This document shows, piece after piece, positions 11,656 through 31,262 of a DNA stretch of 37,870 nt; the first letter of the stretch is position 1; every line of letters begins with the position of its first letter. Both the position numbers and the translations under genes were made by a program. Where the stretch lies: positions 322,787 through 360,656 of the forward strand of contig NZ_CP017298.1 in NCBI RefSeq assembly GCF_001746855.1. Direction: 5' to 3'. A model generated the notes under the pieces. The model saw only the letters and a list, made by a program, of their open reading frames with translations. It was not told where the DNA came from and made no database searches. Source of the DNA: Pauljensenia hongkongensis (lineage in GTDB: Bacteria; Actinomycetota; Actinomycetes; Actinomycetales; Actinomycetaceae).

Positions 11656-12699
11656 ATGAAGAGGGAGAATTGTATCCAATGGGTGACACTTGCGATAACA
11701 GTCGTGCTCACAGTAATTTTCGGTACCGCGTACATGCTGTTCAGGAACGAGGTCTGGGTGTCGATCGCCGACGACCTCGTCTTCCCCGCCGCGTGCACGA
11801 TTCTCGGGGGGCTCACCATCGCACTGGTCGGGAGGACCACGGCATCGCGACTCCTGAACAGCAAGGAAAGAACAGGCGGCGGAACGGAGGCACGGTCAGA
11901 CCGCCCGAGGAACTGCACCTACACAGGTATTCTCATTCTCACGTTCGGCCTCCTGGCTGTTTTCATTCTTACTTACATATTCTACAGTGATCAGAGCTGG
12001 GGCGGGATCGTCCGGAGCCTTTTCTTTCCGCTTTGCTACACGGCGATCGGAACGGTGATCGTGGCATGGGCCTGCACCAGCATAGCCGACAAGTTCCTCG
12101 ACCACTACAACGACAGGGTCAAGGAAGGGCTGGCTAATCGGAGACTGTTCTTCAAGGGCGATGCAAAAATGATTGAAAGCACCCGAGGCGACCTCAAGTA
12201 CTCAGGTTTGATCAATGACGAAAACTACATGTCGAACACCACCAGCATCACAGAATCAGACCTCGTGATCCTGTGCATCGGGCAGAACTACCCCGGATCA
12301 CATGAACGCGGAACCACCGACACTGGTAAGGGTGGGCCCGAGGCAGACGACACAGATTCAGGTCGCACCAGCGAGGAGCCCAAGGGGAAGAACAAACGGG
12401 ATACGAACAACGAAGCGGACCCACGCACGGAAACGTCAAAAAAATCCGAGTCTGTCAGAAACGACTCCAACGACGGCACGCAGTGGGAAGACACCGCACG
12501 AAAGAAAGTAGAAGGCGTCTTAGCAGAAGTCGGCCAGGACTCACGAAGGCCAGCTTTGATCGTGTACACCGACGGCTGGCTGGACAGAGAGACTAAGAAA
12601 CTGATCGATGCCCGCCCCTTCACCGCCCTCGTCAACACCCGCGGCCGAATTGTGAGCGACATCCATTCGCTGCTCACGACGCTTCCACCCCGTTCTTGA
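11656..12699 (+). CDS. Four-TM membrane protein with an alpha/beta C-terminal domain; candidate CRISPR effector
   Basis: 347 residues, not a family I can name. Four membrane helices at about 8-28, 38-58, 90-109 and 118-140 form two similar pairs (VWVSIADDLVFPAAC and SWGGIVRSLFFPLCY begin equivalent helices). A cytosolic part follows: LFFKGDAKMI, SITESDLVILCIGQ, a charged disordered insert (about 211-275), ALIVYTDGWLDRETKKLI, and the end FTALVNTRGRIVSDIHSLLTTL. The predicted strand-helix alternation suggests a Rossmann/receiver-like fold. The same domain, with TRTRGRLVNDALSMLTTL, ends the protein at 28175. It lies 34 bases before cas10 on the same strand. A membrane effector responding to the Cas10 signal is inferred, not shown. 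Confidence 0.75.
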   Translation: MKRENCIQWVTLAITVVLTVIFGTAYMLFRNEVWVSIADDLVFPAACTILGGLTIALVGRTTASRLLNSKERTGGGTEARSDRPRNCTYTGILILTFGLLAVFILTYIFYSDQSWGGIVRSLFFPLCYTAIGTVIVAWACTSIADKFLDHYNDRVKEGLANRRLFFKGDAKMIESTRGDLKYSGLINDENYMSNTTSITESDLVILCIGQNYPGSHERGTTDTGKGGPEADDTDSGRTSEEPKGKNKRDTNNEADPRTETSKKSESVRNDSNDGTQWEDTARKKVEGVLAEVGQDSRRPALIVYTDGWLDRETKKLIDARPFTALVNTRGRIVSDIHSLLTTLPPRS

Positions 12700-15121: not shown

Positions 15122-17538
15122 CTGACGAACCCGACGGCCACGTCACGATCGTCTTCACGTCCGACTGGGGAGTCTCGACCGGTGTGGGCGAGGCGGGCCG
15201 CACCCACTCCACGCTCGAGAAACAGGGCGACCTGCCAGTGGTGCGCGGGACAGTGGTCGCGGGCGTCCTGCGTGAGCAGGCGATGATCGCGGCCCGCGCT
15301 CTCGACGCCGCTGTGCCCGCCCCCTCGACCGGCCGCAAGGATTCGGACGGTTCTGGGGGCGATTCTGAGGGGGGTCCGTGGAGCCGCTTCGCCAAGTGGC
15401 TGTTCGGGGACGAGGGGAACAATCCCCGCCACGTCATTTTCTCCGACGCCCTCCCGGTTCGGTATTCCCAGCGAAACGGGAAACTCAACCAGGAGCCGTA
15501 CTCCCTCCCCGTCCACGACGCCGTGTCGCTCTCCATTGATCCGACCACGGGGGCCGCGCGCGACCAGATGCTGCGCTTCACCGAGCGCGCCGCTCCTGGA
15601 GTCCTCGCGGGAACCTACCGTTTCACCGACGAGGCCGGGGCCGAGCACCGCGAGTACGCGCACTTCCTGCTGGGCGTGGGCGGGCTGATGGTCCGGGGCA
15701 TTGGTTCGGGCCGCAGCGGGGGCGACGGCGAGTGCACGGTGATCGCCGGTCTCGAGTGCGCGACCACGCTCGCAGAGTCGAAAGAGCCAACGGAGGGGAA
15801 TAGTGCCCTGGAGGAAGTGGCGGAAGACCAGAAGGACGAACCCGAGTACTCGTCTGACAGCCTTCGCAAGCTGGCTGAGAAGCTGGCTGATGAGCTGCGG
15901 GAAGCACTATTCGCTCACCTGAACGGCCCATCCTTCGCGGAACGGCCTCCCTCTCTTCTGGTTGACGGGACGAAGACCAAGGCCAGCCCACTCGTTTCCG
16001 TCGCTGCCTCCCGGCACAGTTCCGAGGCCACGGCCGCTCTCCACCCCGCGAGCTGGTTCGAGGCGACCCTCGACATCGTGCTCGACTCCCCCGTCGTGTC
16101 CTATGAGGTGCCGTTCTCGAACGAGGTCCGTTCCCTGGATTTCCTGCGCGGCACGGTACTGATCCCGTGGCTGCACAGGCAGTTGCGCGATTTGCCCACC
16201 CGGGTCGATGGGACTCCACTCGAAGAGGGCGACGAGGACCTTATCAGGTCCGCGGTCGTCTCGGGCGATCTGCGGGTTTCGGACGCCCTCCCGGTCTACC
16301 AGGGCACACCGGGCCTGCCGGTGCCCCTGGTCTTCGAACAAGAAAAGGTGCCTGAGGACGAGGTACCCGCGGACAACGAGAAGGATCCCCTCCAGCCCGT
16401 CACCCTTTTCAACCGCCATATTGAAACCGGCAAGCAGCACTGCGGCGAGCACACCGTTCCCTCACGCGGCGCCTACGTGTTCCTCGACGAGAAACAGCGT
16501 CCCGCTGACACGAATGGCGCCGCAACGGATGACGGCGCTGGTCTATGTGGGGCGGCCCCGGCCTCGTTCGCTGGGCGGATCGGGAAGCCCGCACTGATCG
16601 GACGACAGTCCACGGCCATCGACCCGCACACTGGCGCGGCGTGGAAGAGCCGGTTGTTCCTGGTGCGCGCGCTGCCCGCGGGCCTGCGACTGCGGGCGAA
16701 GGCCGTGATCTCACGGAGGCTCTTCGAGGCGCTGGCCGGGGCACCCGTTTCTGACGCCGATGAGAAGGCTCCCACCCTCGACCTCGAGATCCGCGGGAAA
16801 CACGCATACTTGGGTTCCCGCAGACTCACGGGCACGTTCGGACAGGCCACCTGCAGCCTCGGGCGGTTCACACCCATAGGCGTAGAGGAGGCGCGGAACA
16901 CAACCCCGTGCCAATCCTCTGAGGATGCGGAAACCACTCAGAGCTCCTCCGCGTCCGCGGACAAGACGATAACCACGTCCCTGTGGTTCACCTCGGATGT
17001 GCTGGCCCGTTCCGAGGGACTAGGGCCCGGCGGGACCATTGCGGACTTGCAGCTGGCATTCAACCGGACTGGAGCGCACGTCACAGTAGTAGTTCCCAAT
17101 GATGAGGAAGACCCGGAGGATTCCTCATCAGACCAGAAACCCTCCTCGCCCTGCCATGACGGACCTAAGAAGGCACGTTCCAAGCATGATGACCGTCGCG
17201 ATGATGACAGAAAGAGGAACCGCAAGCAGGTCAAGACCGCGATCCGTCACCGCAGGGTGGACTCCTGGTCGGCTGCCGATGGTGGGCCCCGGGCGACGCG
17301 GATGGCGATCATCGCCGGATCCGTGGTCCAAGTGAAGGTCCCGAGGAGCGATGTTCCAGAGTTGCACGTCCTCGGGCGCATCGGTGTCGGCGAGCTGACT
17401 CCACAGGGATACGGGCGCTTCGAGGTGAACCACCCGGCCCTGCGCGAACCGGTCCTGCCGCTCGTCACAACGAAGAGCAAGTGCTTCACAGCCCCGGAGA
17501 AAAGCGAGGAGCCCGCTCAGGAAGGAGAAGGCCGATGA
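15118..17538 (+). CDS. csx10: Cas7-Csx10 fusion RAMP protein (type III-D)
   Basis: 806 residues in two RAMP parts. Residues 8-212 are Cas7-like: STGVGEAGRTHSTLEKQ, PVVRGTVVAGVLRE (the usual P-x-x-x-G-x-x-R step) and a glycine-rich loop GIGSGRSGGDGE at 194-205. Residues about 290-790 resemble Csx10, the Cas5-like subunit of type III-D. They start with a strand (ATLDIVLDSPVVSYE), include VRSLDFLRGTVLIPWLHRQL, and end with RRVDSWSAADGGPRATRMA, AIIAGSVVQVKV and IGVGELTPQGYGRFEVN, the typical Csx10 tail. An acidic/charged linker near 655-690 is probably disordered. It should cap the crRNA 5' handle and add a backbone unit. Translation is ATGA-coupled on both sides. Confidence 0.8.
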   Translation: MTDEPDGHVTIVFTSDWGVSTGVGEAGRTHSTLEKQGDLPVVRGTVVAGVLREQAMIAARALDAAVPAPSTGRKDSDGSGGDSEGGPWSRFAKWLFGDEGNNPRHVIFSDALPVRYSQRNGKLNQEPYSLPVHDAVSLSIDPTTGAARDQMLRFTERAAPGVLAGTYRFTDEAGAEHREYAHFLLGVGGLMVRGIGSGRSGGDGECTVIAGLECATTLAESKEPTEGNSALEEVAEDQKDEPEYSSDSLRKLAEKLADELREALFAHLNGPSFAERPPSLLVDGTKTKASPLVSVAASRHSSEATAALHPASWFEATLDIVLDSPVVSYEVPFSNEVRSLDFLRGTVLIPWLHRQLRDLPTRVDGTPLEEGDEDLIRSAVVSGDLRVSDALPVYQGTPGLPVPLVFEQEKVPEDEVPADNEKDPLQPVTLFNRHIETGKQHCGEHTVPSRGAYVFLDEKQRPADTNGAATDDGAGLCGAAPASFAGRIGKPALIGRQSTAIDPHTGAAWKSRLFLVRALPAGLRLRAKAVISRRLFEALAGAPVSDADEKAPTLDLEIRGKHAYLGSRRLTGTFGQATCSLGRFTPIGVEEARNTTPCQSSEDAETTQSSSASADKTITTSLWFTSDVLARSEGLGPGGTIADLQLAFNRTGAHVTVVVPNDEEDPEDSSSDQKPSSPCHDGPKKARSKHDDRRDDDRKRNRKQVKTAIRHRRVDSWSAADGGPRATRMAIIAGSVVQVKVPRSDVPELHVLGRIGVGELTPQGYGRFEVNHPALREPVLPLVTTKSKCFTAPEKSEEPAQEGEGR

Positions 17539-20447
17539 CGATCTACCGCTACGAGATGACGATCCCCGTGAAGGTGGTGTCAGCGCTGCACTCCGGCGGC
17601 GTGGACAAGGCGCCCGAGCGCGAGTACGTCGACGAGGACGGCAGAACCGCCCAGCCCAACGAGTTCGTCCGCAACGGCCTGGGCGAGGCTGTCCTGCCCG
17701 GCCGGTCCATCAAAGGCGCGGTGCGGGCGGCCTTCGAGGAGCACGCCGTTGCGTTGGGCTTCGCGGATCCCACTGGCGGAGTCGACGAGTCCGCCCTGAA
17801 GAGCCTGTGGGGCGGTGAGTTGCGCCGCAACGTGGGAGCCTCCAAGCAGCAGCGGGGATTGGGCTCGGACGCCGACCTGCCACTGAGGGCCAGCGCCCTC
17901 ACTTTCCACCACGCGGTCGTGTGGACGGACGGCCCCCTCCCCCACCGCATGAGCACGGCCATCGACCGCGCGCGGGGAAGCGCCGCCGACGGGGCGCTGT
18001 TCTCCTACGAGTACCTGCCGGTGGGCACGACCTTCGAGATCCGCATCAGCGCCGAGGCGCAGGACGGGGACGATGCCATTCCCACTACGCCGCCCCGGGA
18101 CGAGGCCGGCGCCCCATCGACGGACAACGCCCAGTCCAAGACCGGCGGCGATGACTCCGTCAAGCCAGCCGCGCCCGAGCAGGTGGAGAAAGCCCTGCGG
18201 GCCATCGTCACGCTGTTCAAGGACGGCGTGATCTCGCTGGGCGGCCGCACGGGTTCTGGGTGGGGGCGGGTGGAGCTCGCCGCATCCGAACTGAACTACA
18301 CGAAAGACCAGATTCCGCAGGCCCCACGGAAGCCTGGAGGATCCGTCAAGTCCGTGCTGAAACGACTCGTCGGCGCAGGGACAGCCAAAGTCCCGTTACG
18401 GACCGACGAAGCGAGGAAGGCCTCAGAACCACTGGCGTTCACCCTTGAATGGACTTCCCCCAGCGGCGTGTTCGTCGGGATCCCAATGCCGAAAGTCGAC
18501 CCGAAGAAAAAGGACGAGAAGTACACGACCCCCAACGTGCCCGTCCGCAACTGGCACGTGGACGACGGGTTCGCGCGCACGCACGGGGAAGACACCTACC
18601 CCGACAATGCGCATGCAGACGAGGCCGCACTGTTGCTTCCCGGTTCTTCGGTCCGGGGAGCGTTGAGGTCGCGTTGCCTCCGCATCGCACATGACCTCGT
18701 TGACGCCGAGGACGTGATGCGGGCGCTATTCAACGAAGACGGCAAGTCCAAAGGAGTTCACCAACAGATCGCAGCCGAGCCCAACCTGGTACGGTACCTG
18801 TTCGGGAGCACTGAGCACCGGGGGGCTGTCCGAGTTCTCGACTGTGAAGGCAGAGTCGAGGGCACCACCGTGAGTAACGGAAACCCCGAAGAAATAAAGG
18901 CCTTGGAACTGACCCGAAACGCTATTGACCGCGTGACGGGAAGCGCAGCGCACAGTGCCTTGTTCTCCGAATTGTTGTATCCCAAAGCCGACTGGAGTCC
19001 GATTCGGATCGAGGTTGATCAACGCCAACTGGACCGAAATATTCTGCTCGACCTCCGTGGCCGAGGAACGATCACGGACACCGACGACGACCGAGCCCGC
19101 GAAGATCCCTCAGTCGTAACGCGTTCACACGCCTCGCTGCTTCTGCTCGCCCTGGCTGTCTCAGACCTATGCGAGGGCACCCTTCCCCTTGGCGGCGGAA
19201 CCGGCGGGGGGCTCGGCGCGGTCCAAGTGTCCGAAGTGGCGGTAGCGATTCCCGCTGGGCGCAATATGGTTGCGAAAATTCCGTTTACCGCTCCTGAGGA
19301 TGCGGCGGACATCAACAGTGTCCGTGAAGCCCGCGAGGGCTTCGCACAGTCTTTCCTTCATGCCGTCCAGCCCCTCTTCGCACTCCCCGATGCACCGACG
19401 AAGGATGGGCTGTCTGCCGAGGACAGTGTACTCGCCGTGCTCCTCCCTCCCCTTTGTGACAACAAGGGAGGATCGGCCAATAATAAGACAGTCGGCCGGA
19501 AGCGCCCGACTCTCGTGACCATTGAATGGGGTTCTCCAACGGGAGTCTTCGTCGGAGATCCGAGAATCGAAAAGGATGCCGGAGACGCAAAGGAGAAAAT
19601 AGAACCCGAGGGAAAAACAAAGAAAAACATTCTCCTTCCGCTCCGCAGTAAGACCGGAATTCAACGCGACTCGGAAAAAAGTAAAGATCCTCTGTTGCTT
19701 CCAGGAACATCGATCCGCGGAGCACTGCGCTCGCGGTGCTCGCGCATCGCACGGACGGTTCTGGCCGCGCAGTCTAAGGGTCAGGAGCTTGCGAGCTTCA
19801 CGAAGGACGGCCGTCCCATTGACGTTCACGAGCAGCTCGCTGCGGACCCCAACCTGGTTCGCTACATGTTCGGCACCACAGAGTACAAGGGGGCGATTAG
19901 CGTGTACGACTGCGAGACCGTGCCCGGAAAACTCGGAAGCCCGATCGAGGTTCCGCACATCGCGATCGACCGGTGGACCGGTGGAGTCGTCGAGGGGGCT
20001 CTGTTCTGCGAGCTGATCTATCCGAATGCGCAATGGCAGCCGATAGAGCTCGAAATCGACCCTGAAAGGTTGAGACGCAACGTACGGATCGACTCGCTCG
20101 ACACGATGATCGACGACACTGAAGTGCGTAACCGTGCGCGCGCATCGTGGTGCCTGCTGTGTCTGGCCTTGGCAGAGCTTTGCGCGGGCACGCTCCCCCT
20201 GGGAGGAAAGACGACCAGGGGTCTTGGCCAGGTAGAAGTAACCGGTATCACCATTGCACGCGCGGACGAGACCGTCATAAATCCAACCACCGGTGCACCA
20301 CTGAACGATGCACATGACATTCTTAAGTACCTGAAGGGCAAACCTGACGGCAGGGCCAACTATGAAGGCTGGAGCGATCAACTACTTGGAAACACAAGGT
20401 CCGATGAGCGAAACAGCGGCGAATCCGCAGAAGGAGGGCGACGATGA
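17535..20447 (+). CDS. Triple Cas7 RAMP fusion
   Basis: 970 residues holding three Cas7/Csm3-like domains in one chain: about 1-258, 297-572 and 656-908. Each has a PGxSxxGAxR step (55-64, 369-378, 723-732), an AIDR segment (142-, 463-, 810-) and a glycine-rich loop LGGxTxxGxG (235-, 552-, 889-). Domains 2 and 3 are close copies: SPSGVFVG/SPTGVFVG, PNLVRYLFG/PNLVRYMFG, GALRSRC in both. The protein should form several backbone subunits binding crRNA. Acidic residues in the segment after SGVFVG could cut target RNA, but the catalytic Asp cannot be fixed by eye. GAAGGAG precedes the ATG, which overlaps the previous stop; the longer in-frame start at 17481 was rejected. Confidence 0.85.
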   Translation: MTIYRYEMTIPVKVVSALHSGGVDKAPEREYVDEDGRTAQPNEFVRNGLGEAVLPGRSIKGAVRAAFEEHAVALGFADPTGGVDESALKSLWGGELRRNVGASKQQRGLGSDADLPLRASALTFHHAVVWTDGPLPHRMSTAIDRARGSAADGALFSYEYLPVGTTFEIRISAEAQDGDDAIPTTPPRDEAGAPSTDNAQSKTGGDDSVKPAAPEQVEKALRAIVTLFKDGVISLGGRTGSGWGRVELAASELNYTKDQIPQAPRKPGGSVKSVLKRLVGAGTAKVPLRTDEARKASEPLAFTLEWTSPSGVFVGIPMPKVDPKKKDEKYTTPNVPVRNWHVDDGFARTHGEDTYPDNAHADEAALLLPGSSVRGALRSRCLRIAHDLVDAEDVMRALFNEDGKSKGVHQQIAAEPNLVRYLFGSTEHRGAVRVLDCEGRVEGTTVSNGNPEEIKALELTRNAIDRVTGSAAHSALFSELLYPKADWSPIRIEVDQRQLDRNILLDLRGRGTITDTDDDRAREDPSVVTRSHASLLLLALAVSDLCEGTLPLGGGTGGGLGAVQVSEVAVAIPAGRNMVAKIPFTAPEDAADINSVREAREGFAQSFLHAVQPLFALPDAPTKDGLSAEDSVLAVLLPPLCDNKGGSANNKTVGRKRPTLVTIEWGSPTGVFVGDPRIEKDAGDAKEKIEPEGKTKKNILLPLRSKTGIQRDSEKSKDPLLLPGTSIRGALRSRCSRIARTVLAAQSKGQELASFTKDGRPIDVHEQLAADPNLVRYMFGTTEYKGAISVYDCETVPGKLGSPIEVPHIAIDRWTGGVVEGALFCELIYPNAQWQPIELEIDPERLRRNVRIDSLDTMIDDTEVRNRARASWCLLCLALAELCAGTLPLGGKTTRGLGQVEVTGITIARADETVINPTTGAPLNDAHDILKYLKGKPDGRANYEGWSDQLLGNTRSDERNSGESAEGGRR

Positions 20448-21013
20448 GCACCCCGCAGTATAGCGACAGCCTTGCTCCGTTCGAAGAGGCATTCTACTCA
20501 GTTGAGGCCCATGAAGAAACACTTGAAAACGCTTTGGACAGGGCAAAACATACATTCACCAATTGCAGTGTCGCAGGAATAGTGTGGACTACAACGGGAA
20601 TGAAACGCCTTCCCCGGTCACAAACGAAATTCGACAACGTGGCGGAACTCATCGGACTGATCGAACCAGGCATAACCTATGAGCTGCGCATATGGGAGGC
20701 GATAGAGCGCGACAAAGATGAGGAAAGCGACAAAGAGCGTTGCGACGATAACGTTGCTCCGTTAGCCCGCGAACTGCGCTGGACTAACGGCTTAGGGGCA
20801 TCAGAGATCGTAGTGTCAACCGGCGGGCGGTCGCACGAGCCTTCCCTCCCGTGCATGGTGCACACGGTCAGATACCAGACGCATCCAGCCGAGGGCGCAC
20901 CTCCGGGAAGTTCCCGATCCATAGCCGCGCTCGAGATATTCACCGGAGAAGACAGAAATGGAAATCTGGTCTACGCGGACCAGCTGATGACAGGAGCCTG
21001 GAAGCAATCATGA
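20444..21013 (+). CDS. csx19: Csx19-like protein of type III-D
   Basis: 189 residues. VAGIVWTTTGMKRL, then YELRIWEAIER, and the end ALEIFTGEDRNGNLVYADQL follow the layout of Csx19 (GVIWG..., ELLLW..., a late charged and Tyr/Ala-rich strand), a small subunit that marks subtype III-D. The match is at pattern level and divergent, so confidence is moderate. A Cas11-like small subunit is the alternative. It starts in an ATGA overlap with the triple RAMP and ends in another with the next gene. GC content falls visibly here compared with the upstream genes. Confidence 0.55.
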   Translation: MSTPQYSDSLAPFEEAFYSVEAHEETLENALDRAKHTFTNCSVAGIVWTTTGMKRLPRSQTKFDNVAELIGLIEPGITYELRIWEAIERDKDEESDKERCDDNVAPLARELRWTNGLGASEIVVSTGGRSHEPSLPCMVHTVRYQTHPAEGAPPGSSRSIAALEIFTGEDRNGNLVYADQLMTGAWKQS

Positions 21014-23256
21014 GCGACTTTAAGATGTTTCACGCATCAGCAAACAGGATTCCTGTAATACGCAAATCTGCACTAGGACTGTCTCAGTATCAGCATTATA
21101 CGTACCTCAAAGACGAAACGCCAACGCCTTTAGATACTATAGATCTTGAATCATGGTCAGGATCGATCGATATTGTAGTTCGGACACATACGCCCGTTGT
21201 ATACGGAAATCAAAACGCAATCAATCACACCATTGCACTGCCGTCAAACCCTCAAGGTGAGGTTTACATGGCCCCAACAATGATCAAGGGGCTGATTTCT
21301 AGCGCCTACGAAAAGGTTACTTCGTCGCGTTTAAGAGTATTCGGAGATCATTCCAAGCCGCTTACATATCGAATGGACCCCGCTGAGAGTACTCACTTAG
21401 TTCCCGTTCGCATACACAATGACGGGACAACGACTAAAGCTATCCCTCTTTACGGATCCACAAAAACTAAAAGCCACATAACCAGACACAACGACACGGA
21501 AATTCCTATTCTATTCACAGCCACGCTCCTCAACATGGAGACGGACGGAATTCGATTCAGAACCGGAAGCGGAATTAACCAGAAACGCCTGGTGGATCTC
21601 ACAAAACCAACAGATACCTCTGTTCCTTACCGGAAAGTAGTGTTTGACGCTCGCCTTGTGGACAACGGCGCATATGCCCATTGGCTCATCACGGCGTTGT
21701 ATGCGAATCGCGGAAGACAGCTAGATCGAATTGAGCTATTTGACTATACTAAATCAGACCTTACATTCGTTCCCGGCGAATCACTCGACATGATTACTGG
21801 ATACGTCTACGCAACTACGACCACCGAGGATCGCCAATGGGGAAAGTCTACGTTCACCGTAAGAAGTGGTAACGGGATTGAAACGGCTAAGAAAAAGAGC
21901 GAAAGAGTATTCTTTGCAAAGCCTGACGTCAACAATAATGAGGGAATTGATGTTTCTGACGACGTCATCAACAGATACCTGCTGACCATTGACAGCTATA
22001 TTCAGGAATATAGAGAGGCGAAGGTCAAGAGGGTGGCGAATCGTTTCATCAAGGAGCTCGATCTTGGCAGTCGAATTAGAATGGAAGGCGCCTTAGCCTA
22101 TGCGGTTATCGACGAGACGGACAAAAGCAACCCTGTTCTCGACACGCTAGTCCCCATTTCAATCGGTCGCACCTCCTACAAGCGCTCCCCTTATGACATT
22201 GCGCGGGCCAACTATTCATCACCTGCAGAGACAGCGGTTGAAGCTTCTCCTGCGGATCGACTATTCGGCTATGTAGCAATACCCCGGGATCGCGAAGACG
22301 ACAGCGACCAGTCTCCTTGCGATGCGCTGCGCGGCAGGGTCCGCTTCGGATTGATTGACACCAGTAAGGTGAAAATGGACACTGGTGTTGTTCCGATTCG
22401 CCCCTTATTGTCTCCGCGCCCGTCGTCTGCGCGCCGGTATTTGACGCGCGCATTTGGAAAAGAAGCGGGCAAAAATGTCAACACGCCGGAACGCCCAATC
22501 AAGCGTTCACAGTACTATTCTGACGATCCGCAGCAGGCACTTGGTGCGTGCGTATTTCCCACAGATCGATCTGCACTAAGCAGGAGAAACAACTTAGGTT
22601 TCCCGATTAAGGCACTCAGACTTCCCGAAGACTCAGATAATGTGTCGACAACGATTCAGTCCTGGATAGCGCCCGGCAGCGAGCTGCGCACAACGATTCG
22701 TTTCGAAGGTCTGACTCGTAGCGAGCTCAGCATACTCCTTTGGCTGCTGCAACCGGAGAACCTAAGTCCCGAGTCGGATTCGGACTCAGTGCGCACAGAC
22801 GATGGGAACCTTGCCGAACAGAATATAGGTTTCTTTCAGATTGGCATGGGAAAGCCTCTCGGACTCGGTCTTGTCACCATTGAGATCCCTGACGACGGTT
22901 TTCGAGCCGTACGGACTGAATCTCCCGCTGATAACAGAGAAGCAGACTCTCTTGTGCACGACTACATGTCTCTTACGGGCTGCCTTGGAGTTTCAATCAC
23001 GACAACGTCAATATCCAGTTTTCCTCCTCCACATAAGTTCACGTCTTCTCCATGGGTGCGAGCATTTCAGCGGTCGTGCTTTGGTTATACTGACAATCAC
23101 CCGGTTCGCCATATGTCGCTCACTGAGAATCGGCATAACAATATGACTGAAGCTGATGGCGACAATGCAGGCTATCCAAAAGAGGGCGCAGGCGTTGAAC
23201 CCAAGTCTTTGTGGACTTCCGACGGTGGTGATCCCATCAGAGTAGTGAAACAGTAG
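21010..23256 (+). CDS. TIGR03986-like RAMP protein, copy 1
   Basis: 748 residues. GSIDIVVRTHTPVVYGN, YMAPTMIKGLISSAYEKVTS with SRLRVF, ASPADRLFGYVAI and ELSILLWLLQPENL then GMGKPLGLGLV match the large divergent RAMP family TIGR03986 that accompanies type III-D loci. It likely supplies the terminal backbone or insertion RAMP of the complex. A second member lies at 28788 and shares these blocks. The DNA is clearly more AT-rich than its neighbours, with A/T-ending codons frequent, which suggests a different source. The ATG overlaps the csx19-like stop. The last 249 bases are overlapped on the opposite strand by the cas2 frame. Confidence 0.8.
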   Translation: MSDFKMFHASANRIPVIRKSALGLSQYQHYTYLKDETPTPLDTIDLESWSGSIDIVVRTHTPVVYGNQNAINHTIALPSNPQGEVYMAPTMIKGLISSAYEKVTSSRLRVFGDHSKPLTYRMDPAESTHLVPVRIHNDGTTTKAIPLYGSTKTKSHITRHNDTEIPILFTATLLNMETDGIRFRTGSGINQKRLVDLTKPTDTSVPYRKVVFDARLVDNGAYAHWLITALYANRGRQLDRIELFDYTKSDLTFVPGESLDMITGYVYATTTTEDRQWGKSTFTVRSGNGIETAKKKSERVFFAKPDVNNNEGIDVSDDVINRYLLTIDSYIQEYREAKVKRVANRFIKELDLGSRIRMEGALAYAVIDETDKSNPVLDTLVPISIGRTSYKRSPYDIARANYSSPAETAVEASPADRLFGYVAIPRDREDDSDQSPCDALRGRVRFGLIDTSKVKMDTGVVPIRPLLSPRPSSARRYLTRAFGKEAGKNVNTPERPIKRSQYYSDDPQQALGACVFPTDRSALSRRNNLGFPIKALRLPEDSDNVSTTIQSWIAPGSELRTTIRFEGLTRSELSILLWLLQPENLSPESDSDSVRTDDGNLAEQNIGFFQIGMGKPLGLGLVTIEIPDDGFRAVRTESPADNREADSLVHDYMSLTGCLGVSITTTSISSFPPPHKFTSSPWVRAFQRSCFGYTDNHPVRHMSLTENRHNNMTEADGDNAGYPKEGAGVEPKSLWTSDGGDPIRVVKQ

Positions 23257-23529
23257 TAATCTGCACAGCCCCACGTCGTCGAGCGCGACCGCTGCTCCTA
23301 GGATTTCTGCGCGCTCGGCGCAGGTGGAGCACAGGGGGTAGATGTGCACAACGTCTTCGGCCTCGTTGATCAGGGCTGCCAGCCGGGCCCGTATGGCGTT
23401 GAGCCCTGCGGCGTCCAGGCGCAGTTGGAACACGGATTCCTGGATGTGGTAGCCCCAGGACTGCAGGGCTTTGGCGACTCTGGTCCGGCGCCTGTTGGAG
23501 GAGATGTCGTAGGCGACTATGTAGATCAC
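23008..23529 (-). CDS. cas2: Cas2 with a long antisense-encoded C-terminal extension
   Basis: Residues 1 to about 92 are a complete Cas2: MIYIVAYDIS with the usual Asp8, RRRTRVAKALQSWGYHIQES, FQLRL, and VHIYPLCSTCAERAEILG. Cas2 dimerises and bridges two Cas1 dimers for spacer integration. Cas2 proteins usually end at 85-100 residues. Here no stop occurs until codon 174, and residues 92-173 are read from the strand opposite the end of the TIGR03986-like gene. The tail (with FWIACIVAISFSHIV) resembles nothing known and is probably a by-product of a lost stop codon. Cas2 lies 15 bases after cas1. Confidence 0.85.
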   Translation of the reverse strand: MIYIVAYDISSNRRRTRVAKALQSWGYHIQESVFQLRLDAAGLNAIRARLAALINEAEDVVHIYPLCSTCAERAEILGAAVALDDVGLCRLLLFHYSDGITTVGSPQRLGFNACALFWIACIVAISFSHIVMPILSERHMANRVIVSITKARPLKCSHPWRRRELMWRRKTGY

Positions 23530-23544: not shown

Positions 23545-25344
23545 TCACCGCCAGATGATGCCCGTCCACTGGTAGTAGGGTTCGGCGATGGCGCGGGCCA
23601 TCAGCTGTGCCTCGTGGTGGATGTGTCTGCGCCAGCTGCCGCTGAATCCGGGTAGGGCGCCGGTGACTGAGCGTTGTGCGGTTGCCTCGTAGGCGTCGAC
23701 GACGGTTTTCTTGCCGTCGGCACTGAGCCACACACCTTCGCCCTGGGGGCCGGGGGCGCCGTGCTCGGAGCGGAGTCGGCGCGTGCGCAGTAGCGCCATG
23801 ACGGTTTGGTCGACCAGTAGGGGCCGGAACTCTTCCATGAGGTCCAGGGCCAGGCTGGGGCGCTTGTCGGTTGGCGCGTGCAGGACGCCGAGTGAGGGCT
23901 CCAGGCCGGCGGCGTGCAGTGCGCCGACGCATTCGCCCAGCAGAATGGCGTAGGCATAGGAAAGCGCGGCGTTGGGCACGTCGAGGGGCGGGCGGCGGCT
24001 GCGCCCGTTGAAGTCGACGCTGGGCGGCGCGCACATGGCGAGGGCGTCGAAGTACGCGGCTGAGGCGGCGCCCTCGATGCCCATGAGCTCGTCCGTATCG
24101 GCGGCATGTGCGGTTTCTTCGCGCCAGGCGCGCATGCGGGCGGCTGTGTCGGCGAGGTGCAGGGCGGGGTCGCGCCTGGCGATGCGGTTGAGCACGTGGA
24201 TCTGGTTGCGGATTTTGGCGTTGACGATGGCGCGGGCCAGTGGCAGTTTCGCCGTTTCGTCGGTGGTGTACGAGGCTTGGGCCAGCAGGCGGGCGGCGTT
24301 CCCCGTGGCGGCGGTGTTGACCAGTTGGCCCTGGTAGGCTCCGCGTCTGGACAGGCAGACGACGTCGACTCCGTTGCGCAATGCCCAGGAGCGGGCTCCG
24401 GCGGACAGGCCGACGTTGCCGGTGAGCACGATGCGGGTGACGCTGCGTTGGGGGAGGGACATTTGGGGGACGCCGGAGGCGCTGTCGACCAGGAGCCTGC
24501 CTTTGGCGACGTGGATGCGCGTCCCGTCTTTGCCGACGTAGACGATGCGGTCGGCGCTCGCCTCGGGCGTCGCGCTGGTTGTTCGCGGGGCTGGGGCGGT
24601 GGCGGTGTAGTCGGTGCCGAGGTGGCAGAACTCCTCGTCGAAACTGGTGGTCTGGGTTCGCGTCCCGTCGAGCAGCAGGCCGCGGGCGGCCAGGGTGGCG
24701 ACCAGCAGGGCGACGGCGGCATCAAGGCGGGCGTCGTCGGGCTCGCAGATGAGGATCCACTGCCCGCTGCGGGCGTAGCCGTGTCCGGCGTCGGTCATGG
24801 CGTTGTCGATGGGCGCCAGTGCGGCGTTGCGGAGGGCGTCGACCAGTTGGGGCTCATGGCGGGTGTGCGCGATGGCACTGAGCAGCGTGGTGATGGGCAC
24901 GGCGAGTAGCGAGGGAAGGGTGTCGCTGGCGTTTTGGATGATGCGGCGGACGGTCATGGGCGCCAGGCAGCAGCGGAAGACTTTGACGCGTCCGTCGGCG
25001 CGCATGCCGGTGATGCGCTCGGAGAGGGCGGTAGCGCTCCCGCTGATGGGGAATGCGGCGGGCGAGGTTTCTTGTGCCAGGCGGGAGCCGATGGTGTGGG
25101 TGATGGCGCATGCGATGAGTCGGCGCTCGAGGCGGGTCGGCGTGGGTTCGCCGCTGCCTGCGGCGAGTGCGTGGATGAGGGACGAGGCATGGGCCAGTGT
25201 CGCGTCGAGGTCGGCGCTGGCAGTTTGGACGGTGGCGGGGTCGAGGTCTGCGGTGTTGGATGCGAGCATGGTTCGCCATGCGTTGGCGAGGGTTTCGGCT
25301 GCCGCGATGAGCGCGATGATGCGGTTGGGGTCGTCGGTGTTCAT
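23545..25344 (-). CDS. cas1: Cas1 integrase fused to a degenerate reverse-transcriptase domain
   Basis: 599 residues. The C-terminal half (from about 265) is Cas1, starting DRIVYVGKDGTRIHVAKGRL. It keeps the catalytic set: Glu424 (LMGIEGAASAAYFDAL), His489 (GVLHAPTDKRPS) and Asp501 (LALDLMEEFRPLL), so spacer integration should work. Residues about 68-247 follow an RT layout: RRLIACAITHTIGSRLAQ, a motif-A position reading VFRCCLAPMTV instead of an Asp-bearing strand, LRNAALAPIDNAMTDAGHG then YARSGQW where RT has YADD, and FDEEFCHLG at the end. All catalytic Asp residues are gone, so the domain looks enzymatically dead. AGGACG precedes the ATG at 25344. It is first in the cas1-cas2 operon, facing away from the array. 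Confidence 0.88.
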   Translation of the reverse strand: MNTDDPNRIIALIAAAETLANAWRTMLASNTADLDPATVQTASADLDATLAHASSLIHALAAGSGEPTPTRLERRLIACAITHTIGSRLAQETSPAAFPISGSATALSERITGMRADGRVKVFRCCLAPMTVRRIIQNASDTLPSLLAVPITTLLSAIAHTRHEPQLVDALRNAALAPIDNAMTDAGHGYARSGQWILICEPDDARLDAAVALLVATLAARGLLLDGTRTQTTSFDEEFCHLGTDYTATAPAPRTTSATPEASADRIVYVGKDGTRIHVAKGRLLVDSASGVPQMSLPQRSVTRIVLTGNVGLSAGARSWALRNGVDVVCLSRRGAYQGQLVNTAATGNAARLLAQASYTTDETAKLPLARAIVNAKIRNQIHVLNRIARRDPALHLADTAARMRAWREETAHAADTDELMGIEGAASAAYFDALAMCAPPSVDFNGRSRRPPLDVPNAALSYAYAILLGECVGALHAAGLEPSLGVLHAPTDKRPSLALDLMEEFRPLLVDQTVMALLRTRRLRSEHGAPGPQGEGVWLSADGKKTVVDAYEATAQRSVTGALPGFSGSWRRHIHHEAQLMARAIAEPYYQWTGIIWR

Positions 25345-25629
25345 GGGTCGTCCTCACGCTGTGGTTGTGCAACACCTATAGACTTACTTTACAACCTTCA
25401 GGGTGACTTGTGCAACATTTCCGCGGGTGTCAGCATCGACTTTTCGTTGGAAAGCGGTCGGAAAGCGGCAGACGGAACAGTGTTCCGGGCGTCGGTGGCG
25501 ACCCTTGTGCTCCCAACGAAAAGTCCCCTAAACTGGAGTCGTGCTCATTGGCCGGAGGGCTCCCTGTTCGGCCACTGGCGATCCGGTGTGACGTTTGCGC
25601 AGATCAACTGCCATTCGACACGCCGAGGG
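25345..25629 (+). promoter_or_regulatory. CRISPR leader with divergent promoters and long dyads
   Basis: This is a leader between cas1 and the first repeat. Two TTGTGCAACA direct repeats lie near 25364 and 25409. On the minus strand, TTGCAC, 18 bases, TAAAGT could serve cas1-cas2. On the plus strand, TTGTGC (25505-25510), 18 bases, TAAACT (25529-25534) could drive the array. A perfect 13-bp inverted repeat, GACTTTTCGTTGG (25438-25450) and its complement (25513-25525), spans 62 bases, and its right arm sits between that -35 and -10. CGGAACA-G-TGTTCCG (25473-25487) is a second dyad inside it. Confidence 0.65.
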
Positions 25630-26756
25630 GTCAGGGAGCACCCAGCACCATCAGGTGCATTAAGACCGGTAATCGTCCTCCACCCTGTAGAGTGCTCCGC
25701 CGGGTCAGGGAGCACCCAGCACCATCAGGTGCATTAAGACACTGGCCGCTGCTTGAACGCCGGTGGGGCGGTGACCACGGGTCAGGGAGCACCCAGCACC
25801 ATCAGGTGCATTAAGACAGCATGGCCTCGCGCGGTGTCATGGGGTCGATCATCGCTAGGTCAGGGAGCACCCAGCACCACTAGGTGCATTAAGACATAAT
25901 GGTCAAGCCGCAGAGCGGCCCTCACTTCTTGGGTCAGGGAGCACCCCGCACCACTAGGTGGATTAAGACGCGGCGCGACAGCCCCAGCTCCGGGCTGGTC
26001 ACCCACCCGGTCAGGGAGCGCCCAGCACCATCAGGTGCATTACGACTTGAGGATTGTCGCGTTGTCGTATTCGGGGATGTTGGGCAGTCAGGGAGCACCC
26101 AGCACCACCAGGTGCATTAAGAGGTGGAGCCGAACCCCACCGGATCTACGTGGTGCCCGGTCAGGGAACACCCAGCACCATCAGGTGCATTATGACGGCG
26201 CAAGGACTGGAACAGGCCCAGCCCCACGCCCCCTCGTTAGGGAGTACCCAGCACCACCAGGTGCATTAAGACACAGAGAGGACGTGGATCGTGCAGGGGA
26301 TCCTGCTGGCGCGTCAGGGAGCACCCAGCACCATCAGGTGCATTAAGACTTGTTGGAGAACACGGACCCGAACACGCTGATGTCCGGGTCAGGGAGCACC
26401 CAGCACCATCAGGTGCATTAAGACCTTTGGAGTCGTAGTAGTACCATGCGCCGAGTCGTGAGGTCAGGGAGCACCCAGCACCATCAGGTGCATTAAGACG
26501 CCCGCACCCCACGACGGCACTATCTCGCAGTCGCAGTCAGGGAGCACCCAGCACCACCAGGTGCATTAAGACTGGAAATCCAGGGCCGTTACCGTATACC
26601 CGTAGTCGTCAGGGAGCACCCAGCACCACCAGGTGCATTACGACTGTTGATACGCAGGCCCTCTCCCCCACCTTCAACGTGAGTCAGGGAGCACCCAGCA
26701 CCATCAGGTGCATTAAGACTCGGTCTACGCCTCGTAGTACTGGGACAGGTTCAGAC

Positions 26757-26829
26757 GTCAGGGGCCCCTGCACCACCAGGTGTATTAAAACATCGGCCCC
26801 GTCGTCTGGTCCGCGACCGCTTGGAACGC
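26757..26829 (+). repeat. Duplicated array unit, copy 1 (shortened repeat plus spacer 16)
   Basis: A 35-base degenerate repeat (26757-26791) is followed by a 38-base spacer (26792-26829) starting ATCGGCCCCGTCGTC. The spacer is identical to the one at 27385-27422. Confidence 0.9.
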
Positions 26830-27347
26830 GTCAGGGAGCACCCAGCACCATCAGGTGCATTAAGACCCCAGGTGCTCGCCCGCCTGGACGCACCAGGACG
26901 CCAGTCAGGGAGCACCCAGCACCATCAGGTGCATTAAGACTTACGGACCCCGGCCAGCGCGTCACCGCCCGACGGTCAGGGAGCACCAGCACCACCAGGT
27001 GCATTAAGACTTCGCGCCGGATTGACTTCCAGTACCGTTCCCGTACAGTCAGGGAGCACCCAGCACCATCAGGTGCATTAAGACTTGACGGGATCGGTCA
27101 TCGGCAGGAACACCGTGAACGGGATCAGGGAGCACCCAGCACCACTAGGTGCATTAAGACGCTCTTGGAGGCGTCGAGGTCGTCGAGGTACCGCATGAGT
27201 CAGGGAGCACCCAGCACCACCAGGTGCATTAAGACCCCCTCGACCACTCCGACTATCCCGCTGAATATGCCGGTCAGGGAGCACCCAGCACCACCAGGTG
27301 CATTAAGACTCGCCGAGGGCACACTCGACGATCTGGCGGGTCGTGGG

Positions 27348-27422
27348 GTCAGGGGGCACCCTGCACCACCAGGTGTATTAAGACATCGGCCCCGTCGTCT
27401 GGTCCGCGACCGCTTGGAACGC
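27348..27422 (+). repeat. Duplicated array unit, copy 2 (variant repeat plus spacer 24)
   Basis: A 37-base repeat variant shares with repeat 16 the unusual CCTGCACCACCAGGTGTATT segment and is followed by the identical 38-base spacer (27385-27422). Copy 1 looks like this unit after a two-base deletion, so the pair arose by duplication within the array. Confidence 0.9.
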
Positions 27423-27883
27423 GTCAGGGAGCACCCAGCACCACCAGGTGCATTAAGACCGCGCCAGATGGTACGTCGTCGTCGTATTGCCGACCGTCAG
27501 GGAATGCCCAGCGCCATCAGGTGTATTAAGACATCGAATCCTTCTTCAACTGGTTCACGAACTTAGCGTCAGGGAGCACCCAGCACCACCAGGTGCATTA
27601 AGACCCGATCGACTTGTAGGATTCACGGAGGGCGGTCTCGCCGTCAGGGAACACCCCGCACCATCAGGTGCATTAAGACGGCGTGGGGCCAAGGCGCGGC
27701 AGCTCCCGCACCCCGGCGTCAGGGAGCACCCAACACCATCAGGTGCGCTCACGACTTTGCTCCATAGGAGCAGGTCGCGGTCCTCGACCCAAGTGCCAGG
27801 GGGTGGAGGCCGACCGCTGCTGCGGCGATGCCTCGTGCGGGCGCGCCGTCAGCGCTCCTCCGGTCCCCTTCTACCGTGAAGTC

Positions 27884-28787: not shown

Positions 28788-31262
28788 GTGACCGAGAACG
28801 AGGGACAAGCCCCCAGCACCCAGCACCTAGGACCCAGCACCCAGTCGAGAACATGGCACCACGCCTACAACGGCGTCCCCACAGTGCGCGCCAGCCGGAC
28901 GGGCGTGGGCAAGAACCCTCGAGCCGTTTTCTTCGACGACGCCCCTCCCCCACCGCACGACCACATCCCCCCACAGTCCCTCTCCGGCTGGATCCGCCTG
29001 GAACTCACAGTCGCCACACCCACCGTCCCCGGCCACCAGGACCCCTCCGGCAGGATCGTCGTCGCCTCGCTGAACGGGAACAACTGGGGCGCCCAGTCCT
29101 GGGACGACGCGACAATCCCGGCGACAAGCCTCAAGGGCGTCCTCTCATCAGCCTGCGAAGCGGTCACCGAGTCCCGGCTCCGGGTGTTCCGGGAGCACGA
29201 CCACGTGCTCACCTACCGGCGCAGCGCCCGCGAGGGCCAAACCCTGTACCCGGTCTTCCTCACCAAGGAGAAGAACGGAACATGGTCGGCGCGCGTGATG
29301 CTGGGGAAGAACCCCCGGCCCACCACTCCGGCCCAATGGGACACGCCGCCCAGCTGCGTGTGCGCGGCCGCCCTGCCCGACTCCGAGCAATCCGCGGTGA
29401 AAATCATGCTCAGTAAGAAGCGGTACTACCTGGGCGGCCGTCGCCGGAAGAAAGGGAAACAGCGGGGCGACGAGCAGGCAGCCATCCGAACACTCATAAA
29501 GCTGCGCACTGCGACGCCCCATTTGAAACGCGTGTCGTTCACCTGGGAGGAGGAGAATTTCTACGAAGGCACCCGCGCAATTGTCTCCAAAATCGGACGC
29601 ACCCTCTACGCCCACAGCAAGAGCGTGATCGAAAGCGGCACGGACGAGGGCTACGTCGTCCGTACCACGCCCGAACGTGCAGCCAAGGGGAAGCGCAATC
29701 GTGGCCCCGTCCGCCTCATCAGCACGAAGTACAACGAGTTCGTGTTCTTCGACTCGGAGGAGAACCGCACTCTCCTTCCGGTCTCCGACGATGTGGTGTC
29801 GCGCCTGGTGTCCGTCATCCACTCCTACGCCTGCAATGTCTTCGAACTGAAACGCCGCGAGTCGAGGGCGGGTCGGAATCCGTCCTCGGGAACCCAGCGT
29901 TCGACCGACCCCAGCACCCGGTTGGTCGAGGAGTTCGTCCGCCGGCGCCTCAGTGGCGTGCGCGCTCACGACACCGAGCCGCCATTCACCCGCCAGGACG
30001 TACTCGACTACCTGGCGGCCCTGGCCTCGCAAGACCCGGGCATCCCCTTGTTCGCAGTCATCGTCGGCGACGATTCGGGGACGGCGGAGCACGGCGGAAA
30101 AGTGATGGTGCTCGGCCCGTCGCAGGTCGGCCGCGCGACCCCACAGAACGGTGTTCCCCCGCACCGCCTCGCCGAGGACAGCGACGTGCTCCCCGCGCAC
30201 GACATCGCCGAGGCCTCTGCCGCCGACCGTCTGTGGGGGTTCGTCGCCGACGAGCCCGATGACGACGACACGCCCTCCGCGCGCGGCAGGATCACCCTTA
30301 CCCGCGCAGAACCGGACACCAGCACCGGGAAGGAGCACCTGCTGCGCGCCGAGGCGGGCGGATGGGTGCCTCCGATCCTCGCGGGGCCAAAACCGGCGAC
30401 GGGCGCGCCCTACCTGCGCGACCGCGAAGGCAGGCACGTCGGCGAGCGCCTCACCCGGGGGCGGCTGTTCGAACCCGGGCAGACGCTGATCCGCAAGGTC
30501 TACCCCACTCACCGTTTCCTCATTCACGACTACCGGAGCGGTAAGGAGGAGCTGCCGCCACCGGCGCGGGAGGCGCGGAGCGGAGAAGCCACCCAGGGCA
30601 GCGAGGTCGTTGTGGGCTCGTACCTGCTGCCCGGCGCGAAGCTCCACGCCACCCTTCGTTTCACCGCACTCACCGACACCGAGCTCGCGGTGCTCCTGTG
30701 GCTGCTGACCCCTGAGAACCTCGTCCCCACATCCGAGCGGGAAAAGGGCGGGACGGGGGTGTTCCACATCGGCTTGGGCAAACCCCTGGGGTGGGGGGCC
30801 GTCGAAGTCAGGGCGACTGAACTCGTAGTCGCGGACGGGAAGCGCCTCGCACGCGGTTACGCGGATCTGTCCGGGTGCTTGGGGTTGAGCGCTGCAGACT
30901 CTCCGGTCGAGCGGGGCACCGCCGCTCCGACTGCGGCGATCACCAGTACCGCCGAAAGCACCGCTACCACCCCCTTGGCGGACTACCGGGAGCGTCTGCG
31001 GGGACTCCTACCGGGGTTCGAGGCGTCCGCCGCCGTGCGCTCTTTCGCGCGGTCGGCGTTCGGATGGCGCGACGCGCCGGACGAGGACAACGTGTCGTAC
31101 CCGGTCGCGAAGGGCTCTGGATCAGCGGGGATCTCTGCGACCGCCCTGTTCTTCAAGAAGCGGGAGGACAACAGGGTGAAGGCGGCGTTCCCAGACGCCC
31201 GGGGACGCAAAGACTGCCTCAAGTCTCAATTCAACCTCCCCACGCTCGACGACGACCACTGA
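28788..31262 (+). CDS. TIGR03986-like RAMP protein, copy 2
   Basis: 824 residues. It shares blocks in order with the protein at 21010: ATSLKGVLSSACEAVTESRL, EASAADRLWGFVADE, ELAVLLWLLTPENLVP, GLGKPLGWGAVEV, YADLSGCLGLS and RSAFGWRDAP. It is GC-rich like the chromosome, unlike copy 1, and has a low-complexity N-terminal addition (QAPSTQHLGPSTQSRTW). The GTG at 28788 has AGGAAGG ten bases upstream. It lies outside the coupled cas operon, behind the second membrane protein, so it may replace copy 1 in an alternative complex or couple that membrane protein to the complex. Both ideas are inference. Confidence 0.82.
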   Translation: MTENEGQAPSTQHLGPSTQSRTWHHAYNGVPTVRASRTGVGKNPRAVFFDDAPPPPHDHIPPQSLSGWIRLELTVATPTVPGHQDPSGRIVVASLNGNNWGAQSWDDATIPATSLKGVLSSACEAVTESRLRVFREHDHVLTYRRSAREGQTLYPVFLTKEKNGTWSARVMLGKNPRPTTPAQWDTPPSCVCAAALPDSEQSAVKIMLSKKRYYLGGRRRKKGKQRGDEQAAIRTLIKLRTATPHLKRVSFTWEEENFYEGTRAIVSKIGRTLYAHSKSVIESGTDEGYVVRTTPERAAKGKRNRGPVRLISTKYNEFVFFDSEENRTLLPVSDDVVSRLVSVIHSYACNVFELKRRESRAGRNPSSGTQRSTDPSTRLVEEFVRRRLSGVRAHDTEPPFTRQDVLDYLAALASQDPGIPLFAVIVGDDSGTAEHGGKVMVLGPSQVGRATPQNGVPPHRLAEDSDVLPAHDIAEASAADRLWGFVADEPDDDDTPSARGRITLTRAEPDTSTGKEHLLRAEAGGWVPPILAGPKPATGAPYLRDREGRHVGERLTRGRLFEPGQTLIRKVYPTHRFLIHDYRSGKEELPPPAREARSGEATQGSEVVVGSYLLPGAKLHATLRFTALTDTELAVLLWLLTPENLVPTSEREKGGTGVFHIGLGKPLGWGAVEVRATELVVADGKRLARGYADLSGCLGLSAADSPVERGTAAPTAAITSTAESTATTPLADYRERLRGLLPGFEASAAVRSFARSAFGWRDAPDEDNVSYPVAKGSGSAGISATALFFKKREDNRVKAAFPDARGRKDCLKSQFNLPTLDDDH

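Follow-up and report, generated by a model that had tools for sequence, protein, structure and literature searches.

The window, which is the whole 37870 nt stretch of Pauljensenia hongkongensis DNA that was analysed, carries a gene for a 599 aa protein in which Cas1 is preceded by a domain that derives from a reverse transcriptase (RT) and has none of the three catalytic Asp residues of an active RT. On balance, this is probably an RT-Cas1 of the actinobacterial type in which the RT has become a pseudoenzyme, and which would act as a DNA-only integrase with a remnant that contacts Cas1 and Cas2. A sequence-only reading of the window had proposed that an RT-Cas1 lost reverse transcription and kept the domain, and profile comparisons support this, as do same-family relatives whose RT motifs are intact and codon constraint in a pair of sister proteins that are likewise dead by substitution. 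The gene and the parts of its product are as follows.

23545..25344, minus strand: RT-derived domain fused to Cas1 (P0001), 599 aa, a single ORF with an ATG start and no internal stop
23584..24543, minus strand: Cas1 domain, aa 268–587, with E424, H489 and D501 present (Pfam, NCBIfam, alignment)
24850..25314, minus strand: decayed N-terminal part of the RT, about aa 11–165 (RT0, fingers, motif A, RT3a/B), scoring 17.6 bits (178–283 bits in seven left-out intact relatives)
24955..24978, minus strand: place of motif A, FRCCLAPM, aa 123–130, catalytic Asp replaced by C126 (alignment)
24589..24840, minus strand: best-kept RT piece, aa 169–252, comprising the helix before motif C, the motif C hairpin, the next helix and motif E (profiles)
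24757..24777, minus strand: place of motif C, YARSGQW, aa 190–196, Asp-Asp replaced by Q195-W196 (alignment)
24658..24738, minus strand: position corresponding to the Cas1- and Cas2-contacting RT helix of the Thiomicrospira complex, aa 203–229, mapped by residue numbers

The ORF lies at the position previously claimed (23545–25344), on the minus strand and 599 aa long, and residues 424, 489 and 501 read E, H and D, confirming that the Cas1 catalytic residues are retained. Residues 268–553 matched the Pfam family Cas_Cas1 (PF01867) at 1.6e-79 and residues 268–587 matched NCBIfam cas1 at 5.2e-71, giving both the family match and the Glu/His/Asp triad of a Cas1 integrase. When the whole protein was scanned, the best stretches of all families listed started at or beyond aa 256 (for PADLOC, the best 25 of 37). 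The RT-derived domain lies N-terminal of Cas1 within one ORF, as in a fusion by descent, and no Cas6 domain was found in this protein.

A profile built from 10 related RT domains, including that of genome G021, scored 76.0 bits against aa 1–260 (hmmsearch), and the maximum was 6.1 bits among 1000 shuffled sequences, of which 705 were reported. The two halves scored 16.0 bits (aa 1–165) and 67.2 bits (aa 166–260) when searched separately. Using hhalign, the region was aligned with the same 10 domains at a probability of 99.1% (E 4.4e-19), and the corresponding values were 94.4% for the more decayed G031/G028 pair and 77% over 61 columns for G002. As profile comparison had been set beforehand as the check on which the RT claim could fail, the 99.1% probability and the 76.0 bits uphold the claim. 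BLASTP aligned the window protein with the RT-Cas1 of G021, from the same genus, at 48% identity across aa 9–599. The G021 protein is a full-length RT-Cas1 with an RVT_1 match at 2.4e-23, and its RT and Cas1 domains match the Cas6-RT-Cas1 structure 7KFT at 7e-40. PADLOC analysis of aa 1–260 alone gave seven matches, all to RT families (best 4e-5). Pfam returned no family for aa 1–260 at E 10, its filters discarding most weak matches, and RVT_1 found no match in the window protein, G031 or G002; hence RT-based searches can miss dead RTs. An AlphaFold2 single-sequence model of aa 1–260 had a mean pLDDT of 38.5, too poor for use in fold comparison. The pieces quoted in the sequence-only reading do align to RT motifs in order: the fingers piece RRLIACAITHTIGSR at aa 74–88, FRCCLAPM at aa 123–130, LAPIDNAM at aa 176–183, YARS at aa 190–193 and FDEEFCHLG at aa 235–243. 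These comparisons show that aa 1–260 derive from an RT.

All catalytic Asp residues have been lost, as had been claimed, with C126 in place of the motif A Asp and Q195-W196 in place of the Asp-Asp pair of motif C. Neither the motif B signature (QGS/SPLL) nor the fingers block of an active RT is present, HEP occupying the QGS place, and the RT1-2 block (0.2 bits) and RT3a-B block (−0.4 bits) both score below the shuffle maximum. It follows from these residues that the protein is predicted to have no RT activity.

Among 213 genomes of the family that were searched, 28 (window genome included) gave matches reaching 1e-60. In 17 of these, the RT is uninterrupted and retains all three Asp residues; the ORF is full length and includes Cas1 in 12, and the gene is broken in or near Cas1 in the other five (G119, G132, G125, G103 and G111). 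Six were dead by substitution (the window protein, G031, G002, G028, G222 and G126), although one motif C Asp remains in G126 and motif A contains Glu in G222. Five of the six dead proteins are full length and all five have kept the Cas1 triad; in G028, the Cas1 part of the gene is frameshifted. G021 has kept FADD and is counted as defective because its motif A residue is Asn (codon AAC). In G011, G022 and G131, the match covered Cas1 with, at most, the last stretch of the RT. G001 (L007 2830) has all three RT Asp residues and a TAA codon inside motif B. In G011 (L005 33–1421, minus strand), a transposase-like ORF, named by eye, severs the RT part and Cas1 remains open.

The proposed alignment with RT-Cas1 relatives, in search of common Asp losses, was thus run and separated six dead from 17 intact RTs in the 28 genomes. 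None of the eight carriers in the window's genus has an uninterrupted three-Asp RT, compared with 17 of 20 elsewhere (Fisher p 5e-5, which is descriptive only as the species are not independent). RT loss therefore extends beyond the window genome to the other carriers of its genus, and two further dead RTs belong to other genera. Identity to the 10 nearest RT-bearing relatives is 29–32% for the RT part of the window protein and 57–67% for Cas1; for the sister protein in G031, the values are 21% and 71%, respectively. Thirty loci were retrieved, and the alignment comprised 28 rows from 26 genomes, with two pieces each for G132 and G125; no row was made from the second piece of G222 or of G028, and two genomes with only partly matched Cas1, G022 and G131, were omitted. 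Further afield, a scan of genome contigs found three loci matching the Cas1 part at 32–34% and a scan of viral contigs three at 28–32%, while samples of the order and phylum (396 genomes each) added three matches, G351, G403 and G704.

The decay within the RT is uneven. In regional profile scoring (13 sequences, G021 included), the N-terminal part of the window RT scored 17.6 bits compared with 178–283 bits in seven left-out intact relatives, and the C-terminal part 70.1 bits compared with 104–156 bits, the palm segment adjoining Cas1 retaining about half its profile score. In G031, G028 and G002, the C-terminal part scored 24–29 bits and the N-terminal part 0.6–6.6 bits (shuffle maximum 4.4), the G028 RT being readable in this scoring from mid-domain only. 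G222 (140 bits N-terminal, 100 bits C-terminal) and G126 (118 and 107 bits) look like early stages of decay. All six dead proteins retain relatively more of the C-terminal part, by a slight margin in G222 and G126. The length of this part is stable at 90–95 aa, and the RT region as a whole measures 251–274 aa in the window protein, G031 and G002 versus 283–315 aa in 12 other relatives with RT motifs. The best-kept blocks of the window RT are motif E (27.9 bits) and the helix with motif C (27.5 bits). As the block of the RT helix that contacts Cas1 and Cas2 scored 5.2 bits against 8.3 bits for shuffled sequences, and is also low in some intact relatives (range 4 to 54), the claim of retention applies to the palm segment and not to that helix, in which the terminal Lys of the Thiomicrospira protein is replaced by Arg. 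The best survivor is thus the palm segment adjoining Cas1 and not the whole RT.

Trees were built from 23 rows, leaving out G028, G111, G103 and the N-terminal pieces of G132 and G125. In the tree from Cas1 columns, the window protein, G031 and G011 formed a supported clade (100/99), and G002, G222 and G126 were found elsewhere without firm placement, G002 joining the window clade at 67/88. The dead state required at least three changes on this tree, or two when G021 and G001 were counted as defective, and a single origin was not rejected (p-AU 0.137 and 0.102).

Codon models were fitted to 15 genomes, with G021 in the background class, and the joint model shared branch lengths between Cas1 and RT columns. 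Under this model, omega was 0.040 for Cas1 and 0.057 for the RT background. For the RT of the window tip it was 0.20, with omega=1 rejected (2dlnL 38.9) and the value above background (11.3); as synonymous sites are saturated on deep branches, this value is averaged over the branch and possibly covers a period that preceded the loss. Omega=1 was also rejected for the RTs of the G031 and G028 tips (omega 0.095, 2dlnL 161.7), G002 (0.33, 32.7), G222 (0.18, 74.9) and G126 (0.15, 137.4). The substitutions shared by G031 and G028 suggest that their common ancestor was already dead. Omega=1 was rejected for this pair in the pairwise fit (2dlnL 102.3, with t at its bound of 20.09 and hence saturated), and differences were more frequent at third codon positions (0.43) than at the other two (0.23 and 0.24). 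For G028 and G011, the pairwise omega over 50 codons was 0.40, not different from 1 (2dlnL 0.99). Cas1 omega on the dead tips was 0.03–0.09, against a background of 0.048, in a single-region model with branch lengths at their upper bounds; as this model was saturated, the joint model and pairwise fits were used instead, the latter being saturated for some pairs too. The RT domain of the dead sister pair G031/G028 is under purifying selection. This close-pair constraint rests on the two RTs, one of which, in G028, adjoins a frameshifted Cas1. A cas1 fragment elsewhere in the window genome (described below) differs from the window gene about equally at the three codon positions (4/6/4 over 45 codons), and is a weak control as a neutral contrast because omega=1 was not rejected for it (ML omega 0.29, 2dlnL 3.1, 45 codons).

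The type III context recognised earlier was corroborated, as the neighbouring effector genes fit type III-D models (PADLOC Cas10, Cas7_IIId and Csx19). The remaining features of the locus are listed below.

11656..12699, plus strand: membrane protein of type III operons (PADLOC Mem_04, 1.2e-110)
12734..15121, plus strand: Cas10, with GGDD at aa 428 (family search)
15118..17538, plus strand: Cas7/Cas5-like RAMP protein (III-D models, weak)
17481..20447, plus strand: large RAMP protein with three RAMP stretches (Cas7_IIId 1.9e-60)
20444..21013, plus strand: Csx19 (3.7e-26)
20851..23256, plus strand: TIGR03986-type RAMP protein (family search)
23008..23529, minus strand: Cas2, first ~90 aa normal, the ORF then running on to 173 aa; family C-terminus GVW absent
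25345..25629, plus strand: leader, last 200 columns 84–89% identical to the leaders of two other arrays
25630..27754, plus strand: CRISPR array with 37-nt repeats and 24 recognised spacers of 35–41 nt
27385..27422, plus strand: spacer matching phage xhp1, both ends coded, with a second copy at 26792–26829
28788..31262, plus strand: second TIGR03986-like RAMP gene, past the array, 26% identical to the first

Cas10, III-D-type Cas7/Csx10-like genes and Csx19 are all present, the Cas5/Csx10 match being weak, and no match to Cas6 was found among the nine window proteins scanned. An in-frame, near-perfect tandem duplication of 88 nt (12894–13071, period 90) lies within cas10. Homologues 42–44% identical to the RAMP gene past the array are present at G121, G122, G107, G130 and G145, five loci from genus g4 or the family to which it belongs. 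Beyond it, two pairs of 78% identical repeats (31605–31684/34318–34397 and 33118–33207/34653–34742) are perhaps a duplicated promoter and gene start. Several relatives encode a Cas2 of 93 aa ending in GLCRGVW, and the Cas2 of G126 looks frame-shifted near residue 65. The abnormal Cas2 C-terminus in the window could mean that adaptation is already impaired.

No other full-length Cas1 was found in the window genome, and RVT_1 had no match in its 2.14 Mb at E 0.01, a search that was positive in 3 of 14 control genomes. The genome assembly is a single contig rated 70.5% complete (most genus mates 95–100%), so that an RT gene may have been missed. Three arrays are present, with leaders 84–91% identical, and a comparison of 47 spacers (24, 13 and 10) showed none common to any two arrays. 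The 27 repeats recognised in the window array are not all that it contains. Array 2, together with its leader and a cas1 N-terminal fragment, is a detached copy of the cas1-leader-array junction (L002 1474–1659, minus strand; L090 10039–11054), and the third array lies near G000:C1:503773. The cas1 fragment at array 2 carries the altered RT0 block of the window protein (SNT.. versus [RKN]DxxDG in 17 of 17 intact-motif RTs), indicating that the copy was made after the RT0 block had decayed. As the two arrays share no spacers, at least one of them has gained its spacers since. Spacers were therefore probably gained after RT decay began, unless array 2 came from another strain.

One spacer of the window array has a target in a phage of the host group, matching Actinomyces phage xhp1 at 34 of 38 positions; it is antisense to the annotated phage gene, assuming that reading of the array proceeds away from the leader. 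As this phage infects Actinomyces odontolyticus, the match places the bacterium close to that species. Other matches of the array to phages were to stretches resembling ordinary genes or transposases, or were weak (one match, E 0.06). The repeat-spacer unit holding the xhp1-matching spacer is duplicated within the array (26761–26867 and 27354–27460, 96% identity over 107 nt). Within the genus, 12 of 35 genomes had a match to the array, mostly in other arrays; G022:C37 and G020:C1 also contained the xhp1 spacer, and G021 had a 29-nt stretch of a different one.

What such a protein might do is suggested by mutants of other RT-Cas1 proteins in the literature. In the accessible parts of PMC8102632, an RT active-site mutant is described as losing >80% of RNA ligation compared with 20–33% of DNA ligation, and the C-terminal part of the RT in 7KFT contains the motif C sheet and a helix reaching Cas1 and Cas2 (residue numbers mapped in this study). 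The available text of PMC11014452 reports that Cas1 with the RT deleted acquires spacers from DNA, and that an RT domain uncoupled from cDNA synthesis impedes RNA integration. It also reports that, in RNA-acquiring RT-Cas1 proteins, the majority of new spacers have two or more uncoded bases where spacer and repeat join. By analogy, a DNA-only integrase with an RT helix contacting Cas1 and Cas2 would be expected. The window RT-Cas1 and Cas2 would form a spacer integrase using only DNA, and the protein would be unable to make cDNA or to tail RNA protospacers, so that RNA-derived spacers would no longer be acquired. The surviving palm segment may touch Cas1 and Cas2, either in assembly of the complex or in gating of the Cas1 active site, and would be retained for this contact, as seen for the active RT in the Thiomicrospira complex; we infer that the remnant docks on Cas1/Cas2 in the same way. 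The type III effector would act only where there are transcripts, and with spacers now coming from DNA, only those antisense to transcripts would protect. Relatives with a decayed RT probably also store memories of invaders from DNA only.

A more specific and tentative proposal, somewhat less likely than not, is that in one genus the RT was switched off and selection has preserved the palm/RT-helix segment as a non-catalytic component of the integrase. The closest competitor of the preferred reading, which we regard as rather unlikely though not negligible, is that the useless RT drifts as a plain relic and persists only through its position between the start codon and Cas1. Such drift agrees with the low RT identity (29–32%, and 21% to G031) where Cas1 reaches 57–67% and 71%, with a window-tip omega above the RT background, and with the variety of ways in which RTs of the genus are broken (a stop in G001, a transposase in G011, a frameshift in G028, an unmatched RT part in G022). 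However, omega=1 was rejected for the pair that diverged after the loss, G031/G028 (2dlnL 102–162), and for the window tip (38.9); the segment adjoining Cas1 has not shortened and still scores well in the profile, in contrast to the decaying remainder; and 255 open codons would be only about 2% likely at this base composition if the region were fully randomised.

Persistence of constraint without catalytic residues would also suit a domain repurposed for nucleic-acid binding or regulation, for example one that holds DNA or RNA protospacers uncopied. Active RTs grip their template with the fingers and motif B, and these are the very parts that have been lost, making such a role improbable even though the accessible text of PMC11014452 describes an active RT-Cas1 in which RNA versus DNA integration is modulated by the RT domain. 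Recruitment by the domain of another cellular RT that supplies cDNA in trans found no supporting evidence in the window genome (rated 70.5% complete), where RVT_1 had no match in 2.14 Mb at E 0.01, and seems very improbable. Least credible of all is a chance likeness between RTs and an unrelated domain in aa 1–260: the Pfam result would allow it, but not the score of 76 bits against a shuffle maximum of 6.1, the hhalign probability of 99.1% or the unbroken alignment to the family's RT-Cas1 proteins.

RT-Cas1 is the known route for CRISPR recording of RNA. The relatives described here form a natural experiment in which the RT has been lost in various ways (one Asp, a stop codon, all Asp, the fingers) and Cas1 is often under strong selection, suggesting that a type III system can do without RNA capture. 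The set of dead RT-Cas1 proteins is ready-made for probing what the RT contributes to integration besides cDNA, and counting RT-Cas1 by fusion architecture can overstate the capacity for RNA recording. If the proposal that selection has preserved the palm/RT-helix segment is true, these proteins would be a natural separation-of-function series in which the RT domain serves Cas1-Cas2 integration in a structural or gating capacity apart from cDNA synthesis, and RNA memory can be abandoned while the type III system stays in use. No earlier description of RT-Cas1 fusions with an inactivated RT was found in the open-access literature searched, and the available portions of PMC5541045, PMC6013744, PMC5513706, PMC6753606, PMC12669027, PMC8102632 and PMC11014452 contain no report of one.

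Among known systems, the closest are the actinobacterial RT-Cas1 proteins (RT-CRISPR clade 10, Toro et al. 2017, accessible parts of PMC5541045), which share with the window their domain order and a type III effector. Full-length alignment is seen with relatives from the same family, most of which have an adjoining cas2, an array and homologous effector genes, and the host group and homology suggest that the window protein belongs inside clade 10. Unlike RT-Cas1 of that clade, it is without the three catalytic Asp residues, most of the fingers and motif B. The RTs of Thiomicrospira Cas6-RT-Cas1 (7KFT/7KFU) and Marinomonas RT-Cas1 are active by assay, whereas that of the window is judged dead from its sequence. 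The Thiomicrospira protein also has a Cas6 domain, none being found in the window protein, and in its complex an RT helix touches both Cas1 and Cas2. The Marinomonas Cas1 with the RT deleted (PMC11014452, available text) is engineered, has no RT activity and still acquires DNA spacers; the window protein, in contrast, is natural, appears dead by substitution and loss, and retains a remnant. The WGDD RT-like proteins of Streptomyces (PMC6013744, in the part accessible) are CRISPR-associated and have an altered motif C, with both Asp residues kept. Cas10 of types III-G, III-H and III-I, as described in the available text of PMC12669027, offers a parallel in which a polymerase-type palm has lost catalysis and the domain has been retained in a CRISPR protein, although that Cas10 is a subunit of the effector and the window RT-Cas1 belongs to adaptation.
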